This document shows, piece by piece, positions 2-21,271 of a stretch of DNA of 21,271 bases (position 1 is the stretch's first letter; each line of letters begins with the position of its first letter). Source of the stretch: a virus; the IMG/VR virus record IMGVR_UViG_3300000101_000228, positions 1 to 21,271 of that record; one strand, written 5' to 3'. The notes under the pieces are model-generated. The model did no database searches. It had not been told where the DNA came from and saw only the letters and a list, made by a program, of their open reading frames with translations. The position numbers were made by a program, and so were the translations under genes.

Positions 2-499
2 GAGTACGATAGAGCTTATAATGCTAAAATGCAAGAGATGCAGGCTCGTGAGGGTGGGGGCGGAGTGCCTAACGACGCTCAAGCCACAGAGCGTGCTGTT
101 GCTGAGGGCGTGAATACTTCAGAGAGTCCTTTGTCGTTCAAGCTTAAGAGTAAAATGCCTGGTTTCGCTAGCGGTGGTCGTATTAACAACAAACACCACT
201 TTAGTATTGAGCGTGAAAAGCTCGAGGAAGGCGTATTAGGCGAGGCTTACCCAGATAAGGTTGTTATAGACAAGGACATCAAAGAGGGGAGCGCGCTAGA
301 GAAAAAGGTTGTTTCTCATGAAGCCCAACACGTAAAGGACATGGCTAATGGTGATGCAGCTTTTGGAGATGATTGGGTTGAATGGAAAGGCAAGACGTAT
401 GAGAGAAAAGACGGCAAGGTGAAATATAAAGGAGAGTGGCACAAGGACGGGTGGGATGGATTCCCTTGGGAGAAATCCGCTATCAAGGCAGAAAAGTGA
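2..499 (+). CDS. Putative zinc metallopeptidase (HExxH), 5' end outside window
   Basis: The frame is open from the left edge, so the gene probably starts upstream; the first in-window ATG is at 29, inside a charged Gly-rich stretch that does not look like a true N-terminus. Near the C-terminus is VVSHEAQHVKDM, with HEAQH at 317-331, a match to the HExxH zinc site in which the two His bind zinc and the Glu is catalytic. About 46 residues later FPWEKSA supplies Glu (470-472), a plausible third ligand of gluzincin type. Between them lies a Trp/Lys/Gly-rich segment (WVEWKGKTYERKDGK). Small proteins of this layout occur in marine and flavobacterial phages, from memory. The next gene, a holin, starts inside the stop codon (GTGA). 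The role may be lysis, virion maturation or wall penetration during entry; the sequence does not decide. The peptidase motif is seen, while the activity is inferred. Confidence 0.6.
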   Translation, partial: EYDRAYNAKMQEMQAREGGGGVPNDAQATERAVAEGVNTSESPLSFKLKSKMPGFASGGRINNKHHFSIEREKLEEGVLGEAYPDKVVIDKDIKEGSALEKKVVSHEAQHVKDMANGDAAFGDDWVEWKGKTYERKDGKVKYKGEWHKDGWDGFPWEKSAIKAEK

Positions 500-888
500 A
501 CTTCTTAGAGAAAGTACTCTCGGGTGGCGTCGCTAAGTTAGCGGAAAGCATAGGTGGCACTTTAGATGAATTAATTACATCTAAAGAGGAGAAACTGGAG
601 GCTAAGAGAAAAATAAAAGAACTTATAATAAAACATGAGGTTGAGTTAGAGAAAAGCATAACAGATAGGTGGGTGGCAGATATGCAATCGGATTCTTGGT
701 TATCCAAGAATGTACGCCCAACTATGTTAGTGTTTTTAGTTGTATCCACTGTCACTTTGATATTTGTGGACGCTGGATATATAAGTTTTATAGTAGAACA
801 AAAATGGACAGATCTATTGCAGATCGTATTAATAACAGTGATCGGCGCATACTTCGGCGGAAGATCACTTGAAAAAATAAAGAAGTAA
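496..888 (+). CDS. Holin, GTA/3TM type
   Basis: A 130-residue protein, resembling the holin family first described in gene-transfer agents (GTA_holin_3TM). It would make holes in the inner membrane to release lysis enzyme and end infection. Residues about 1-55 are a charged amphipathic helix region, followed by RWVADMQSDSWLSKNVRP, which matches the family's conserved W..DM.SD.WL...RP block. Two hydrophobic segments come next (LVFLVVSTVTLIFVDAGYI and LLQIVLITVIGAYF), and the C-terminus is FGGRSLEKIKK, also typical. I chose the GTG at 496, overlapping the previous stop as GTGA, over an ATG at 436, because the longer form adds residues unlike any holin and lies fully inside the upstream gene; AAGG a few bases before the GTG may help initiation. 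Only two membrane segments are clear, and a third would have to come from the N-terminal helix. The family match is strong; topology is less certain. Confidence 0.8.
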   Translation: MNFLEKVLSGGVAKLAESIGGTLDELITSKEEKLEAKRKIKELIIKHEVELEKSITDRWVADMQSDSWLSKNVRPTMLVFLVVSTVTLIFVDAGYISFIVEQKWTDLLQIVLITVIGAYFGGRSLEKIKK

Positions 889-1386: not shown

Positions 1387-1979
1387 TGAGAGGTGTTTAT
1401 GACATCATAGCTAAGCCTCTTGGATCTAGATATAACAACAGTAAGTCTATTGGGGATAAAAACCTGATACTTAATACAGAGGTGTTTAATCACCAGTATA
1501 TAAATAGAGAGGCAGAGGTTACAGAGGTTCCGGTAGTTAACTCACTTAATTTATCTAAAGGTGACATTGTAGTGCTACACCATAATGTGTTTCGCCGATG
1601 GCACGACGTGAAAGGTCGAGAGAAAAACAGTAGGAGCTATCTTAAAGAGGACGAATACTTTGTTCAACCTAACCAGGTGTTTTTAACTAAGAGCCCTAGT
1701 GAAGATTGGAGCTGTGTTAGTGGCTATTGCTTTGTGCAGCCTATAAAAGATACAGATAGTTTAAGCGCTGAGGCCGAAAGACCACTCATGGGTGTTGTGA
1801 AGTATTCTGATGGGACTGTACCGGTTGGTAGTTTAGTCGGCTTCACCCCTGGTGATGAGTTTGAGTTTATAGTTGGTGGCCAAAGAATGTATAGAGTAAT
1901 GTCTAAGTTTATTACAATTAAATATGAATATCAAGGAGACGAAGAAGAGTATAATCCAAGCTGGGCAGATAGCCGTTGA
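1386..1979 (+). CDS. GroES-like protein with two tandem co-chaperonin-type units
   Basis: A 197-residue protein starting at a GTG that overlaps the previous stop by one base. Unit 1 (about residues 5-102) has DIIAKPLGSRYNN, then NREAEVTEVP and GDIVVLHHN, ending with EDEYFVQPNQVFL. Unit 2 (about 110-182) repeats the order: YCFVQPIKD, MGVVKYSDG, VGSLVGFTPGDEFEFIVGGQ, MYRVMSKFITIKYE. This matches the GroES pattern of PL.DR near the start, a G.V turn, VGD.V.F, then a Y.(V/I)...DI..I strand at the end. GroES proteins cap the GroEL chamber; phage versions such as T4 gp31 help fold the capsid protein. The position before TerS and TerL fits a late chaperone. A GroEL mobile-loop sequence is not obvious, so it could instead be a structural protein using the same fold. 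The next gene starts inside its last 56 bases. Confidence 0.55.
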   Translation: MRGVYDIIAKPLGSRYNNSKSIGDKNLILNTEVFNHQYINREAEVTEVPVVNSLNLSKGDIVVLHHNVFRRWHDVKGREKNSRSYLKEDEYFVQPNQVFLTKSPSEDWSCVSGYCFVQPIKDTDSLSAEAERPLMGVVKYSDGTVPVGSLVGFTPGDEFEFIVGGQRMYRVMSKFITIKYEYQGDEEEYNPSWADSR

Positions 1980-2199
1980 AGAGCTAATCAAAGTAGCTAA
2001 AGAAGCTATTGTTGATTCAGATGATGATATATCAGCCGATAGACTCAAGAACGCCGCTGCCACAAAAAAGCTCGCGATCTTCGATGCCTTTGAGATATTA
2101 ACCAGAATTCAAGAGGAAGAGAACTTGCTTGAGGGCAGAGAGCCTGAAGAAAAGAAAGCTAGTGTCTTTAAGGGTTTTGCTGAAGGAAGATCTAAGTAA
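1924..2199 (+). CDS. Small terminase subunit candidate
   Basis: A 91-residue, mainly helical protein placed directly before TerL, where the small terminase subunit usually lies. TerS proteins recognise phage DNA and control the TerL motor as a ring. The sequence has an N-terminal helix (KKSIIQAGQIAVEELIKVAK), an acidic loop (DSDDDIS), a conserved-looking block ADRLKNAAATKKLAIFDAFE that continues as a helix to about residue 70, then an acidic linker and a basic tail. It is shorter than many TerS proteins, and a classical helix-turn-helix cannot be confirmed by eye. The start ATG at 1924 lies inside the GroES-like gene, giving a 56-base overlap in another frame, and the stop overlaps the TerL start by one base (TAATG), which suggests coupled translation. 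The TerS call rests mainly on position, size and helical content. Confidence 0.5.
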   Translation: MNIKETKKSIIQAGQIAVEELIKVAKEAIVDSDDDISADRLKNAAATKKLAIFDAFEILTRIQEEENLLEGREPEEKKASVFKGFAEGRSK

Positions 2200-4412
2200 T
2201 GTACGAACAGACATTATTAAAAATAATAGAGCCTATAAAGAAAACCACTCTTACCAGGTTGAACAGGGGTAAGAAGTGGAAGTATGGTTACGATAAAGAT
2301 CACGATATAGTGGTTTTGTCTAAAACCGGTGTTATAGGTGAGATATACGAGATACAGGGTTTTAAGATTGCTCTACCTAAACCCACTAATGTTTTCAAGC
2401 ACGAAAGCAACAAGTGGAAAAAAGTAGATCAACCTAAAGAACTTAGCCGCATAAAAACTATATTTGACTGGAGGAATTATCCAGACGAACAAAAAGAAAA
2501 GTGGCACGGGTATATTGACGAAGAGTTTAGGCGCAGGGAAGAGGGGCACTGGTTTATGAACAACGGAGAACCAACGTACATAACTGGTAGTCACTACATG
2601 TACTTGCAATGGAGTAAAATTGATGTTGGTGCACCGGACTTTAGAGAGGCCAATAGGTTATTCTTTATATTTTGGGAAGCCTGCAAAGCTGATAAGAGAT
2701 GCTACGGAATGTGCTACCTTAAGAACCGTCGTTCAGGGTTTTCTTTTATGAGTTCAGCAGAAACAGTTAACTTAGCCACTATATCGAGTGATAGTAGATA
2801 TGGGATACTTTCTAAGTCTGGTGCCGATGCAAAAAAGATGTTCACAGATAAGGTGGTTCCTATAAGTATTAACTACCCTTTCTTCTTTAAACCAATACAG
2901 GACGGTATGGATCGTCCTAAGTCTGAGTTAGCCTATAGAGTTCCATCTACAAAGTTTACTCGTAAAAAAATACAGAGTAACGAGAGACTCGAGGAGCTCG
3001 CCGGTCTTGACACAACAATAGATTGGAAAAACACTGGAGATAACAGTTATGACGGTGAAAAGCTAAGCTTGTTAGTACATGATGAGAGTGGTAAGTGGGA
3101 AAGGCCTGATAATATATTAAACAATTGGCGAGTAACAAAGACTTGCTTGAGACTTGGAAGTAGAATCGTAGGGAAATGCCTTATGGGGTCTACTTCAAAC
3201 GCGTTAGATAAAGGAGGTAGTAATTTTAAAAAGTTATATAATGACTCAGATGTTTCTAGGCGAAACCGCAATGGACAAACAAAGTCTGGCTTGTATTCTC
3301 TCTTTATCCCTATGGAATGGAACTATGAAGGATTTATTGACGAGTACGGATTTCCAGTCTTTGATAATCCATGTGATGGAGAACGACTGGGACCAGACGG
3401 TGAATTAATAGATGTAGGTGTCGTAGATAGCTGGGAAAACGAAGTGGATGGTCTAAAAGGAGACCAAGACGCTTTAAACGAGTTTTACCGACAGTTCCCT
3501 AGAACTACGGAGCACGCATTTAGAGATGAGAGCAAGAGCAGTATATTTAACTTGATGAAGATATATGAGCAGATAGACTACAACGAAGGAAGTAGGCATG
3601 CAGCTCACACAACAACCGGAAGCTTCGGTTGGGTTAATGGAATTAAGGATTCACAGGTTGTTTTCAACCCAGATCCAGGGGGTAGATTTAAAGTAAGCTG
3701 GGTACCACCAGCGCACTTGCAGAATAAACAAATAATAAAGAATGGTATTAAGTTCCCAGGCAATGATCATATTGGCGCGTTTGGCTGTGACAGTTATGAT
3801 ATTAGCGGCACTGTCGATGGTAAAGGGTCGAAAGGGGCGCTCCATGGATTAACAAAGTTTTCTATGGAAGACGCGCCTTCGAGTACGTTTTTTTTAGAGT
3901 ATATAGCAAGACCACAAACCGCTGAGATGTTTTTTGAAGATATGCTTATGGCTCTTGTGTTTTACGGCATGCCTATATTAGCAGAGAATAATAAACCGAG
4001 GTTACTATACTATCTACGACGAAGAGGCTACAGAGGATATAGCATGAACAGACCAGATAAAACTTGGAAGAAATTATCAGTTGCTGAAAAAGAAGTAGGT
4101 GGCATACCTAACTCAAGTGAAGATATTAAGCAAGCGCACGCTTCAGCTATAGAGATGTACATACAAGAACACGTCGGGCATCTAGGCGAAGGGAATTACG
4201 GAACAGTGTACTTTAACGAGCTGCTAAATGATTGGGCTAGGTTTAATATAAACAACCGAACTAAGCATGACGCCTCTATAAGTTCTGGTCTAGCTATCAT
4301 GGCTTGCAATAGACATCTGTACGCACCAAATGCAAAAATAGAAAGACAACCTTTGAACTTAAGTGTCGCAAAATATAACAATAAGGGGTTTACATCCCAA
4401 ATAATAAACTAG
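2199..4412 (+). CDS. terL: Terminase large subunit (TerL)
   Basis: A 737-residue DNA-packaging motor that pumps DNA into the prohead with ATP and cuts it with its nuclease. In the ATPase half, the Walker A position is YLKNRRSGFSFMSSAE (about 173-188), a deviant form lacking the lysine of GK(S/T). Walker B is LSLLVHDES (289-297) with D295-E296, and the coupling motif is CLMGSTSN (327-334). The nuclease half has the RNase H-like acidic residues: GAFGCDSYD (D531, D534), AENNKP (E596) and TKHDAS (D691). The length is somewhat above the usual 450-650, due partly to about 90 extra N-terminal residues. The start overlaps the upstream stop by one base, with AAGGAAG about 10 bases before, one of the few Shine-Dalgarno-like sequences here. 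The portal follows after 4 bases. The architecture is certain, the subfamily less so. Confidence 0.93.
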   Translation: MYEQTLLKIIEPIKKTTLTRLNRGKKWKYGYDKDHDIVVLSKTGVIGEIYEIQGFKIALPKPTNVFKHESNKWKKVDQPKELSRIKTIFDWRNYPDEQKEKWHGYIDEEFRRREEGHWFMNNGEPTYITGSHYMYLQWSKIDVGAPDFREANRLFFIFWEACKADKRCYGMCYLKNRRSGFSFMSSAETVNLATISSDSRYGILSKSGADAKKMFTDKVVPISINYPFFFKPIQDGMDRPKSELAYRVPSTKFTRKKIQSNERLEELAGLDTTIDWKNTGDNSYDGEKLSLLVHDESGKWERPDNILNNWRVTKTCLRLGSRIVGKCLMGSTSNALDKGGSNFKKLYNDSDVSRRNRNGQTKSGLYSLFIPMEWNYEGFIDEYGFPVFDNPCDGERLGPDGELIDVGVVDSWENEVDGLKGDQDALNEFYRQFPRTTEHAFRDESKSSIFNLMKIYEQIDYNEGSRHAAHTTTGSFGWVNGIKDSQVVFNPDPGGRFKVSWVPPAHLQNKQIIKNGIKFPGNDHIGAFGCDSYDISGTVDGKGSKGALHGLTKFSMEDAPSSTFFLEYIARPQTAEMFFEDMLMALVFYGMPILAENNKPRLLYYLRRRGYRGYSMNRPDKTWKKLSVAEKEVGGIPNSSEDIKQAHASAIEMYIQEHVGHLGEGNYGTVYFNELLNDWARFNINNRTKHDASISSGLAIMACNRHLYAPNAKIERQPLNLSVAKYNNKGFTSQIIN

Positions 4413-4416
4413 AAAT

Positions 4417-6777
4417 ATGGCTGAGTCAGTGTATATTAATTTCCCATCTCAAGCGGTCCCTGACCTAGAGAAAATGAGTGCTGAGTACGGGCTTAAGGTG
4501 GCTAAAGCTATTGAGCAAGAGTGGTTCAAAGATTCGCACAGCAATAGATACACTGCTACAAACCAAAAATTCCACAATCTAAGGCTGTACGCGCGGGGAG
4601 AGCAGTCTATACAAAAATATAAGGATGAGTTGTCTATAAACGGCGATTTGTCCTATCTTAATTTAGACTGGAAGCCTGTACCTATTATACCTAAGTTTGT
4701 TGACATAGTAGTGAACGGTATGTCTGAGAGGATGTTCAACGTTAAAGCATATTCCCAAGATCAGTTTGGTGTAAGCAAGAGGACGGAGTACATGGAGTCT
4801 GTGATGCGAGATATGGACGCTAAGGCTTACAACGACCAAGCAGCGGAGATGTTCAATGTGGATCTATACGAGAACAATAAAGAAGATCTACCTGACACTC
4901 AAGAAGAGCTAGATTTACATATGCAGCTTGATTATAAGCAAGCGGTGGAGATCGCAGAGGAGCAAGCTATAAATGTTTTACTAGAAGGTAATAGATACGA
5001 TTTAACTAGAAGAAGGTTACTTTATGACCTAACAGTGCTTGGGATTGGTTGTGTTAAAACAAATTTCAATTGGAGCGATGGAGCCACTGTAGAGTATGTA
5101 GACCCTGCTAACATAGTATACTCTCACACAGACTCACCGTATTTTGAAGACATATACTACATTGGCGAGGTTAAGACTATTCCTATAAACGAGCTAGCAA
5201 GAGAGTTTGATAATCTCACCGAGTCTGACCTAGAGGAGATATACGCTAATAATAGTAAGCGTGGAAGAACGCATACCACAGATAAAAATAAGGTTCAGGT
5301 GTTATACTTTAATTTTAGAACACACACTAATGACGTTTATAAAATTAAGGAGACTGGAGCAGGTGGTTACAAAGCTATAGAGAAGACAGACGCGTTCAAT
5401 CCTCCTACAGACAAAGAGGGTGGTTACTCGAGACTACAGAGATCAGTGGAGTGTATATTTGAAGGGGCTATGGTTTTAGGCACCAGTAAACTACTTAAGT
5501 GGCAAAAGGCTGAGAACATGATGCGGTCTAAGAGTAATTTTAACAAAGTTAAAATGAACTACTCTTTAGTTGCGCCGAGAATGTACGAAGGGCGTATTGA
5601 ATCTATAGTTAGCAGAATAACAGGGTTTGCTGATATGATCCAATTAACACACTTAAAGCTACAGCAAGTTTTATCACGCATGGTGCCTGACGGAGTGTAC
5701 CTTGATGCAGATGGACTTGCTGAAATAGATTTAGGCAATGGCACTAACTACAATCCACAGGAGGCTTTAAATATGTTCTTCCAAACAGGTAGTGTTATAG
5801 GTAGGAGCTTCACAGCCGATGGGGATCAGAACCCCGGTAAGATACCTATTCAACAAATATCAAACGGCGCGGGGCAAAATAAGATGGGTAGCTTAATCCA
5901 GACGTATAACTACTATCTTCAAATGATTCGTGATGTGACGGGGCTAAATGAAGCTAGAGACGGTAGCATGCCTGACCCTAAGTCTTTAGTTGGTGTACAA
6001 AAGCTTGCTGCTGCAAACTCTAACGTAGCCACGAGGCACGTACTGCTTGGATCCATGTTTTTAACTTCAGAGGTTGCTGAAGCTCTGTCTTTGCGTATAT
6101 CTGATATACTAGAGTATTCGCCCACTGCAGATGCTTTTGTCCAGTCTATAGGCGCGCATAATGTAGCTACGCTAAAAGAGATGTCAGAGTTGCACCTGTA
6201 CGATTTTGGTATATTCTTAGAGTTAGAGCCAGATGAAGAAGAGAAGCAAATACTAGAGAACAATATACAGACAGCCCTTGCTCAGCAGCTAATAGATTTA
6301 GATGACGCTATAGATATTAGAGAGGTTAAGAACTTGAAGTTAGCAAATCAATTGCTAAAGATAAAACGCAGAAAGAAACAAGAGCGTGACCAGCAAATCC
6401 AACAGCAAAACATTCAAGCGCAAGCACAAGCTAATGCGCAAGCTCAACAAGCCGCAGCTCAGTCTGAGATACAAAAAAATCAGGCAAAAGCTCAAACCGA
6501 CACGCAACTAGAGCAAATAAAATCTCAAAGTAAATTAGCTTACCTTCAAGAGGAGGTTAGGTTGAAAAGAGAGTTAATGCAGTTTGAGTTTGATTTGAAT
6601 CAAAGTTTACGCAATCAAGAGAGAGAATCCGCGGAGAGAGTTGAGGGCATGAAAGAAGCTGGTAAAGATAAACGAGAAAAAGTCAAAGCGAGTGCTAAAA
6701 AGTTCGAGTCTTCAGGTAATGATATACTAGGAGGCGGAATGGGTTTAGATAAGTTTAACCCGCAAATTGGAAATTAA
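4417..6777 (+). CDS. Portal protein (podovirus, P22-like size)
   Basis: A 786-residue protein that forms the dodecameric ring at one head vertex, through which DNA is packaged and leaves, and which nucleates head assembly. The identity rests on its place between TerL and the scaffold/capsid genes, its size (P22 gp1 is similarly large) and portal-like segments: KPVPIIPKFVDIVVNGMSER near residue 90, TVLGIGCVKTNF near 208 and VEYVDPANIVYSHTD near 225-240. It is followed by a long helical region and DVTGLNEARDG...P..LVGVQKLAA near 507-532, a pattern common in podovirus portals. Residues about 645-760 are an extended Gln/Ala-rich and then charged coiled coil (for example QAQAQANAQAQQAAAQSEIQ), likely the C-terminal barrel that reaches into the capsid. 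It ends 17 bases before the scaffold candidate. Confidence 0.9.
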   Translation: MAESVYINFPSQAVPDLEKMSAEYGLKVAKAIEQEWFKDSHSNRYTATNQKFHNLRLYARGEQSIQKYKDELSINGDLSYLNLDWKPVPIIPKFVDIVVNGMSERMFNVKAYSQDQFGVSKRTEYMESVMRDMDAKAYNDQAAEMFNVDLYENNKEDLPDTQEELDLHMQLDYKQAVEIAEEQAINVLLEGNRYDLTRRRLLYDLTVLGIGCVKTNFNWSDGATVEYVDPANIVYSHTDSPYFEDIYYIGEVKTIPINELAREFDNLTESDLEEIYANNSKRGRTHTTDKNKVQVLYFNFRTHTNDVYKIKETGAGGYKAIEKTDAFNPPTDKEGGYSRLQRSVECIFEGAMVLGTSKLLKWQKAENMMRSKSNFNKVKMNYSLVAPRMYEGRIESIVSRITGFADMIQLTHLKLQQVLSRMVPDGVYLDADGLAEIDLGNGTNYNPQEALNMFFQTGSVIGRSFTADGDQNPGKIPIQQISNGAGQNKMGSLIQTYNYYLQMIRDVTGLNEARDGSMPDPKSLVGVQKLAAANSNVATRHVLLGSMFLTSEVAEALSLRISDILEYSPTADAFVQSIGAHNVATLKEMSELHLYDFGIFLELEPDEEEKQILENNIQTALAQQLIDLDDAIDIREVKNLKLANQLLKIKRRKKQERDQQIQQQNIQAQAQANAQAQQAAAQSEIQKNQAKAQTDTQLEQIKSQSKLAYLQEEVRLKRELMQFEFDLNQSLRNQERESAERVEGMKEAGKDKREKVKASAKKFESSGNDILGGGMGLDKFNPQIGN

Positions 6778-20403: not shown

Positions 20404-21030
20404 ATGAGTTTTGTAGTAGCCGCATCAGCTGTTGTATCCGCCGGGATGGGGGTGTATAAAGCTGTACAGGGTAAAAAAGCTGCTAATGCAGCGAAAATTG
20501 AAGCAGATAAAGCTAGGATAGAGATGGAGAAGCATAAGGAGGCTTTTGCAGCTTTAGATACTAGTAACCCATACTCAAATGTTATGGAGGATTTAACGGT
20601 GAATACACAAGCAGCAGAATTTGGAAAACAAGAAAGCATGCAAAACCAAGCTAATATCATGCAGAAGATGCGTGGAGCTGCTGGTGGTTCTGGTATCGCC
20701 GCTCTAGCCCAGACTCTAGCTAATAGAGGATCTTTGGATGCTCAGCAGCGATCAGCTAGTATTGGAGCACAAGAAGCCGCTAATCAGAAAGCAAAAGCTA
20801 CAGACGCTGCTAGGGTTCAAGAGGGCGACGTTATGAGTAGAAACATGGAGTTTGATAAAACCCAAGGGCTTATGGCTCTTTCTGCTGGAGATGTATCCGC
20901 CGCTAACGCTTTACAGCAGCAAGGTATGCAGTCTATGATGGATGGGGTCGAACAAGCTGGCACTGGGATTATGGAGGCAGGAACTAGTATTCACGACGAG
21001 CTCAACAAGCCCCTAAAAAAGACGAAATAA
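20404..21030 (+). CDS. Internal virion protein candidate
   Basis: A 208-residue Ala/Gln/Met-rich protein. The N-terminus is hydrophobic and small-residue-rich (VVAASAVVSAGMGVYKAVQG), like a membrane-inserting segment, then a charged helix (KAANAAKIEADKARIEMEKH). The middle has NPYSNVMEDLTVNTQAAEFG and QANIMQKMRGAAGGSGIAAL, a glycine-rich hinge I recall from ejected virion proteins of marine podoviruses, then Ala-rich helices. It has the character of T7 gp14-type proteins, which leave the particle with the DNA and help form the ejection channel. It begins 3 bases after the cupin gene and shares one base with the next start (TAATG). The family is suggested by composition, motif memory and position; the role is inferred. 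Confidence 0.68.
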   Translation: MSFVVAASAVVSAGMGVYKAVQGKKAANAAKIEADKARIEMEKHKEAFAALDTSNPYSNVMEDLTVNTQAAEFGKQESMQNQANIMQKMRGAAGGSGIAALAQTLANRGSLDAQQRSASIGAQEAANQKAKATDAARVQEGDVMSRNMEFDKTQGLMALSAGDVSAANALQQQGMQSMMDGVEQAGTGIMEAGTSIHDELNKPLKKTK

Positions 21031-21271
21031 TGGCAGTAAACTATGGGTTAGATAGCAGTACACTAAGCGCGGTCCGTGAGGCTGGGTTAGGAGGGGAAGC
21101 TGCAGAGCGCTTGCAAAAAGCTACGGTAGCAGACACTATAAGTGACGCGGCTACAGGTGTAAGAGATCAAGTAATAGAAAGACGAGAGGACGCTGAAGCT
21201 AGAGAAGAAGCTTGGGATGTGGGGTTCGATGAAATGGGCGATCGTGGGTCGTGGGCTTCAGGTGAACTATT
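21030..21271 (+). CDS. Virion protein candidate, 3' end outside window
   Basis: The ATG at 21030 overlaps the previous stop by one base, and the frame stays open to the window end, giving the first 80 residues. The visible part is MAVNYGLDSSTLSAVREAGL, then helical and charged (QVIERREDAEAREEAWDVGF). It follows the internal virion protein candidate, and its Ala/Glu-rich helical start fits another member of the ejected virion set. Too little is seen to assign a family. Confidence 0.6.
   Translation, partial: MAVNYGLDSSTLSAVREAGLGGEAAERLQKATVADTISDAATGVRDQVIERREDAEAREEAWDVGFDEMGDRGSWASGEL

Follow-up and report, generated by a model that had tools for sequence, protein, structure and literature searches.

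In this study we describe a phage open reading frame (ORF) that, judged from its sequence, very probably ends in a small zinc-dependent peptidase of the zincin/gluzincin type. Its relatives would make up a new family of an already known kind of enzyme: active-looking small gluzincins with an unusual leader in common at the N-terminus. Zinc binding and proteolysis are what we infer from the conserved motif and the predicted fold. As to the role, the reading that we put forward, at somewhat less than an even chance, is that the peptidase processes virion-associated late proteins tagged with the same leader. The DNA analysed, in the following called the window, is a virus record from IMG/VR. Its 21,271 bases are part of the genome of an uncultured marine phage, a relative of Cellulophaga phage phi38:1. 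The peptidase ORF (165 codons, positions 2..499, + strand) is open at its 5' end, which lies outside the window. It is followed on the same strand by a holin-like membrane protein (496..888), a small conserved ORF directly before the terminase (1924..2199; terminase small subunit by position only; cluster 0, 138 loci with the window and its copy L001 included), the terminase large subunit TerL (2199..4412; PHROG 6681, 3.4e-167), which served as the anchor for finding relatives, and the portal protein (4417..6777; PHROG 6547, 8e-140). In the PHROG search terminase, portal and other head proteins of the window gave phage-family matches. An ORF cut by the window end (21030-21269) is the counterpart of phi38:1 gp100 by gene order, so that the window reaches neither the giant late gene nor the lysis end of the genome.

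The predicted catalytic domain (residues 68-165, 203..496) consists of three strands, a helix with the HExxH motif, a beta insert and a further helix carrying a Glu. The HEAQH motif (residues 106-110, 317..331) would provide two zinc ligands and the catalytic Glu, and within PWE (residues 155-157, 464..472) Glu157 (470-472) is the predicted third ligand. A first-pass annotation of the window had proposed such a gluzincin-type site, with H97, H101 and E148 counted from the ATG at 29. This numbering is exact, the residues being H106, H110 and E157 of the ORF, and the proposal itself is supported: the Glu of PWE lies in the following helix of the AlphaFold model (155-163). Since HExxH arises in 1.5% of shuffled copies of the window protein, the motif by itself is weak evidence. 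It rises above chance because of its conservation in 106 of 107 family ORFs, the window included. Across the aligned ATG-started copies (n = 107) W156 and E157 are invariant and the P of PWE is present in 104; position 106 is His in 105 copies, the other two having a Glu and a gap there, and 106 copies retain E107 and H110. The sole exception to HExxH among the 107 is the homolog at L062:2800-3174, which reads EExxH and is possibly inactive.

The family set of 107 ORFs, which includes the window, came from a profile search of the gathered loci, and thinning to below 88% identity left 77 members. Two pairs of loci (L002/L097 and L023/L107) lie on the same contig and L001 is the window itself; counts over 106-108 are therefore partly non-independent. 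As a single query the window protein confirmed no relative in the search for related loci, and tblastn with it in phages gave nothing better than E 0.3-0.4. Relatives were reached through the TerL search, 80 loci being kept among the matches listed, and a peptidase homolog was detected in 24 of these 80 (tblastn, E 0.01), many loci being short or cut before the region. By profile scan of IMG/VR a relative is encoded in at least 576 among the 600 candidate stretches listed, 80 being kept. Among GTDB genomes it was found in one of 84 candidate stretches, on a contig of a Sphingobacteriales MAG (pattern scan). When 13 marine virus records were scanned whole with the profile, 12 gave one match each; nine of the 13 had been picked for holding the gene, and three of the four picked by terminase have it. 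Distant homologs occur in the T4-like phages pT24 (E 1.3e-10) and Cr30 (4.4e-6), both by profile, with the HExxH...WKG...PWE pattern kept, in other gene contexts and with no leader. The one in Tenacibaculum phage pT24 (L170:5755-6330) is unannotated and lies four genes ahead of a 'head completion' gene. The window protein also matches PHROG 16532, of unknown function, at E 4e-6 over residues 101-165 only, and 37 of the 77 members match it at 0.01. In the literature searched by title and abstract start we found nothing describing the peptidase family or the leader.

Terminase matches were obtained in 87 of 50,697 records. The nearest sequenced phage by this protein is MW202828 (Manatee Spring; 63.5% identity), and other near ones are Flavobacterium elemo, Cellulophaga, Tenacibaculum and Maribacter phages. 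According to the profile scan the peptidase is absent from all seven sequenced relatives tested, namely six isolates (elemoF, phi38:1, phi13:2, Calle, Panino and Gundel) and the Manatee Spring record MW202828. By their gene content the peptidase-bearing relatives look like the 'group 2' marine genomes, which in excerpts of Nishimura et al. 2017 (PMC5332604) are related to phi38:1 and comprise 36 with GroEL.

The AlphaFold model of the window protein, built with 77 sequences, shows a compact domain. Block-mean pLDDT values are 94-97 over the stretch that starts at residue 71 and reaches the C-terminus, whereas the residues ahead of it mostly score low. In the model of a second member (39 sequences) the order of elements is unchanged, and the first 23 residues are disordered. 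Foldseek returned no PDB chain under E 0.001 (E at least 0.41), and unrelated RecA chains also appear. In structural alignments (VIA) of the second model IrrE 3dte is the best neighbour (Z 5.8, rmsd 4.1, 84 aligned) and PprI is also near the top; further neighbours are 6mdx (Z 5.4), which we take to be SPRTN, VgrG2b (4.9), ArdC (4.0), abylysin (4.0), selecase and Wss1. The VIA neighbours are nearly all zincins, with an HtpG chain (Z 2.9) as the one clear exception. IrrE/PprI reach Z 5.7-5.8 across the two models, tied with others. The maximum VIA Z is 5.8, and values below 8 may reflect a common arrangement, so that the fold by itself is not decisive. The best BFVD match is A0A218MLK9 (8.9e-8), then SprT-like phage proteins and the pT24 protein, and the closest PDB profile match is MJ1213 (selecase), at an insignificant E of 0.35.

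How does this family relate to known enzymes? Minigluzincins such as abylysin and jannalysin/selecase (4jiu, 4jix, 4qhf-4qhj) have a minimal scaffold of about 100 residues, like the peptidase domain, and are among its fold neighbours (Z 2.6-4.0). However, there is no significant sequence similarity, and the family has a beta insert between the HExxH and Glu helices. The likeness to IrrE/PprI (M78) is that in both models the aligned range of 3dte, followed from end to end, puts the PWE Glu on IrrE residue 113, presumably the zinc-ligand Glu, if the last helix is ungapped; identity is 11-13%, however, and the peptidase is far shorter. Hypothetical proteins of pT24 (BPT24_172) and Cr30 share the HExxH ... 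WKG ... PWExxA pattern and SprT-like phage proteins appear among the BFVD fold matches, yet these proteins belong to another phage type and gene context and have no leader. The Pfam SprT-like model reaches 0.055 at best among the 77 members. SprT proper uses a third His. The T4 gp21-type prohead protease is a serine protease, and the head proteins there carry capsid-targeting leaders. What our peptidase would have in common with this type is that head proteins with a leader serve as substrates; but it is unrelated in sequence, is predicted to be a zinc enzyme, and would be packaged only on our proposal. The prohead protease family S78 (PF04586) matched neither the window protein nor the 77 members, and none of 16 phage records, while control genomes do match; S77 (PF03420) likewise matched none of the 16 records, but control genomes give no match either. 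Finally, excerpts of Iyer et al. 2017 (PMC5512222) describe zincin domains with an HEXXH helix, a later helix with the third-ligand Glu and a variable insert in polyvalent proteins that are encoded by phage late genes and packaged in the head or injected. Such proteins are proposed there to be processed prior to packaging, within the head or once injected; an effector role is proposed as well, and P1 DdrB is cited. In contrast to those MPTase domains of large multidomain proteins, the present family is mostly standalone (102 of 106 relatives, 112-150 aa) with a common N-terminal leader, and the likeness drawn here is to the MPTases (12 clades) in general.

Many neighbours of the peptidase start as the peptidase does, with MAFKMKG or MGYKMKG, a leader of the type M-x-[FY]-K-[LM], and 97 of 106 relatives begin with the leader pattern. 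Per contig we counted it as [FY][KR][LMI][KRGNHSY] within residues 2-12. The peptidase contigs G001-G008 and the partial G013 hold 10, 4, 6, 10, 8, 1, 2, 6 and 2 leader ORFs, the peptidase itself being included except in G006, compared with 0.13-0.52 in shuffles. In eight of these nine contigs the leader is common to the peptidase and 1-9 other ORFs, which are mostly small and basic. The G006 peptidase begins MGFKLPK, outside the pattern, and no other convincing leader protein was seen in that contig. Eight related records that lack the peptidase (W01-W07, G010) have 0, 2, 0, 0, 1, 1, 0 and 1 leader ORFs against 0.28-1.07 in shuffles; the leader is thus at chance level there. Some pattern matches in both groups look like chance, and one match in elemoF, where the peptidase is absent, is a structural protein whose first residues are MFKMK. 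Altogether 132 leader proteins contain 22.4% K+R versus 12.8% in other ORFs, and past residue 14 their SPxK frequency is 4.18 per 1000 aa, compared with 0.45 when shuffled and 0.26 in 1,528 other ORFs. Six leader proteins matched no Pfam family up to 0.1, two of five gave a weak PHROG match (0.013, 0.046), and for two there was no credible match in phage records. On L172 (939-4106, 7312-7716), L205 and other peptidase contigs there are small basic proteins of the MAFKMKG type with repeated SPxK/SAxK, and the few that were scanned match no known family. A leader protein at L094:417-959, together with its cluster of seven, contains hydrophobic segments rich in Gly (GMIPGVGNIADAAN), reminiscent of membrane or pretoxin regions; it has no Pfam match. 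We also considered the leader as a translation-start signal, the region before the start being A-rich. We think this unlikely, because the leader codons vary synonymously and the motif is internal in extended forms. The common leader and the basic neighbours suggest that the peptidase works on phage proteins rather than opening the cell.

A possible mechanism would be as follows. The zinc would be held by H106, H110 and E157, with E107 as the general base. The leader would gather tagged late proteins in the procapsid or the ejection machinery, where the peptidase might trim or activate leader proteins, perhaps including itself, during virion maturation or after ejection; packaging and substrate are again what we infer. 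A virion protease had been among the possibilities named in the first-pass annotation, and as a possibility it stands. The late location, the common leader, the basic partners and a neighbouring gp80 homolog all point in the same direction as virion-protein processing. This homolog of phi38:1 gp80, a protein deposited as structural by similarity, adjoins a leader gene in G002 (BLASTP E 2e-13). In excerpts of a jumbo-phage survey (PMC7824862) a zincin is suggested for extra maturation cleavages. However, we found no virion proteomics of a peptidase-bearing phage in the literature searched, and the seven sequenced relatives that lack the gene mean that the wider phage group manages without the peptidase. 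The peptidase-bearing genomes may be one clade, in which case the co-occurrence of the leader may only reflect descent. Points against virion processing are also the G006 peptidase with no convincing leader partner, the structural MFKMK protein in an elemo phage that has no peptidase, the weak fold matches (VIA Z up to 5.8, RecA among the Foldseek rows) and the pT24 and Cr30 homologs that have no leader. A bolder version, which is possible but which we regard as doubtful, is a cargo system of uncultured marine Bacteroidota podoviruses. Here an [AG][FY]K[LM] leader would recruit basic proteins and the metallopeptidase into the particle, and the metallopeptidase, not a serine prohead protease, would process the cargo for assembly or ejection.

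Instead of phage proteins the peptidase might cleave host proteins, as a host-directed effector that is ejected with the DNA or made late, with the leader marking ejected proteins. Effector-type zincins do appear as weak Pfam likenesses: among the 77 members (matches to E 0.1) Peptidase_M91 was found in 24 (best 0.0036), Peptidase_M90 in 22 (best 5.7e-5) and eCIS_core in 13 (best 0.0029). The structural neighbours include VgrG2b and ArdC, and an effector role is also allowed in the excerpts of Iyer et al. (PMC5512222). However, these E-values are weak and the window protein matches no Pfam family up to E 1. The late block, the fixed neighbourhood and the strong conservation suit a phage substrate at least equally well. 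All in all we hold an effector to be rather unlikely.

The window copy differs from most relatives in its N-terminus. Among the first-pass suggestions was a longer virion protein, begun outside the window, to which the ORF would belong, and for the window a longer protein fits: bases 2-130 (ORF residues 1-43) reach 0.524 bits per codon when read in the ORF frame, where pieces of window genes give 0.12-0.46 in frame and -1.58 to -0.32 off frame (5-95%), so that this stretch is very likely coding. It is probably the tail of a fused upstream protein. The following leader-like stretch TTG-S-F-K-L-K (residues 44-67, 131..202; pLDDT mostly low) aligns with the conserved start of the standalone relatives, and the TTG at 131, on which the family start methionine falls, could be an alternative start. 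In tblastn searches of the 80 TerL loci listed no match begins before residue 39 of the ORF. L125 has a comparable extension containing a second leader-like motif. For the relatives the suggestion does not hold: because 102 of 106 are short and standalone, the extension looks like a local fusion. The extended forms in the window and in L125 would be compatible with a peptidase that frees itself or its fused partner and has no further target, for which P1 DdrB is a published precedent (excerpts of PMC5512222). But the 102 relatives of 112-150 aa have nothing to release, and self-processing as the only function seems improbable to us.

The gene order was compared in 108 loci, L001 and the window counting as two although their DNA is identical. 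It is usually GroEL, GroES, variable ORFs, an 'MNILKYYR' ORF, the peptidase, 0-6 ORFs, the holin, small ORFs and the terminase; a few loci (L056, L109, L158) have the peptidase ahead of GroEL. The slot between the holin and the ORFs before TerL is variable, with ORFs of very different sizes, e.g. in L088 (1193 aa) and at L130:7916-8683, some of them LamG/lectin-like by eye. The 'MNILKYYR' protein (L172:6464-6904 and homologs in 83 loci), encoded between GroES and the peptidase, has phi38:1 gp78 as its counterpart by eye. It is this small conserved ORF, which looks like a winged helix by eye and immediately precedes the peptidase in 47 of 108 loci, that might speak for a regulatory protease of the IrrE/ImmA kind, removing a repressor and so switching on late genes. 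IrrE/PprI as the top fold neighbour, though tied with others, would fit as well. However, the peptidase gene is itself located among the late genes, the only family matches of the upstream protein are to a PHROG of unknown function (1.9e-5) and, poorly, to Pfam (0.028), and its counterpart in phi38:1 is present where the peptidase is missing. No M78 (IrrE/ImmA) model was among the Pfam matches of the window protein or of the 77 members. We therefore give a regulatory protease little credence.

The holin gave rise to the remaining reading, that of an endolysin or lysis accessory. As annotated before, the holin starts inside the peptidase stop codon, its GTG (496-498) overlapping the TGA (497-499) in the sequence GTGA. 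For the window holin the match to PHROG 3427 'holin' has an E-value of 1.4e-28, and that to GTA_holin_3TM (PF11351; 4.9e-5, 24.3 bits) stays just under the cut-off of 24.8; the holins of several relatives start with MNIL, MSIL or similar at the corresponding place. A holin lies downstream of the peptidase in 106 of 108 loci and is adjacent, with no ORF between, in 35. The observation that no classical endolysin is nearby is correct for the window, which has no M15_3 match, but not for the relatives, whose endolysin sits in the late region beyond the reach of the window. Peptidase_M15_3 was found in 8 of 34 peptidase-bearing records, a set that consists mostly of fragments and contains the window; among the 8 records of at least 47 kb, 7 have it. 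In G004 the peptidase is at 6.9 kb and the M15 gene at 50.0 kb. The eighth long record, G002, has a DUF5675 gene (1.7e-27) beside an ORF that by eye resembles the M15 neighbour of G004, and thus by eye in the M15 slot. The DUF5675 gene at L180:15350-15817 (- strand) seems to occupy the slot where other relatives hold the M15 endolysin. Since relatives possess a classical cell-wall enzyme, the peptidase is not needed as one. With ORFs intervening before the holin in 71 of 106 loci, and with Pfam and PHROG matches that include no lysis family, a lysis enzyme paired with the overlapping holin is not supported and very unlikely.

In conclusion, if leader-tagged virion proteins are indeed processed by this enzyme, it would be a metallopeptidase counterpart of the head-maturation proteases in widespread uncultured marine phages, and a short tag would predict which hypothetical proteins enter the particle. 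The conservative part alone would give a name to an enzyme family that is now annotated as 'hypothetical protein' or as a PHROG of 'unknown function'.
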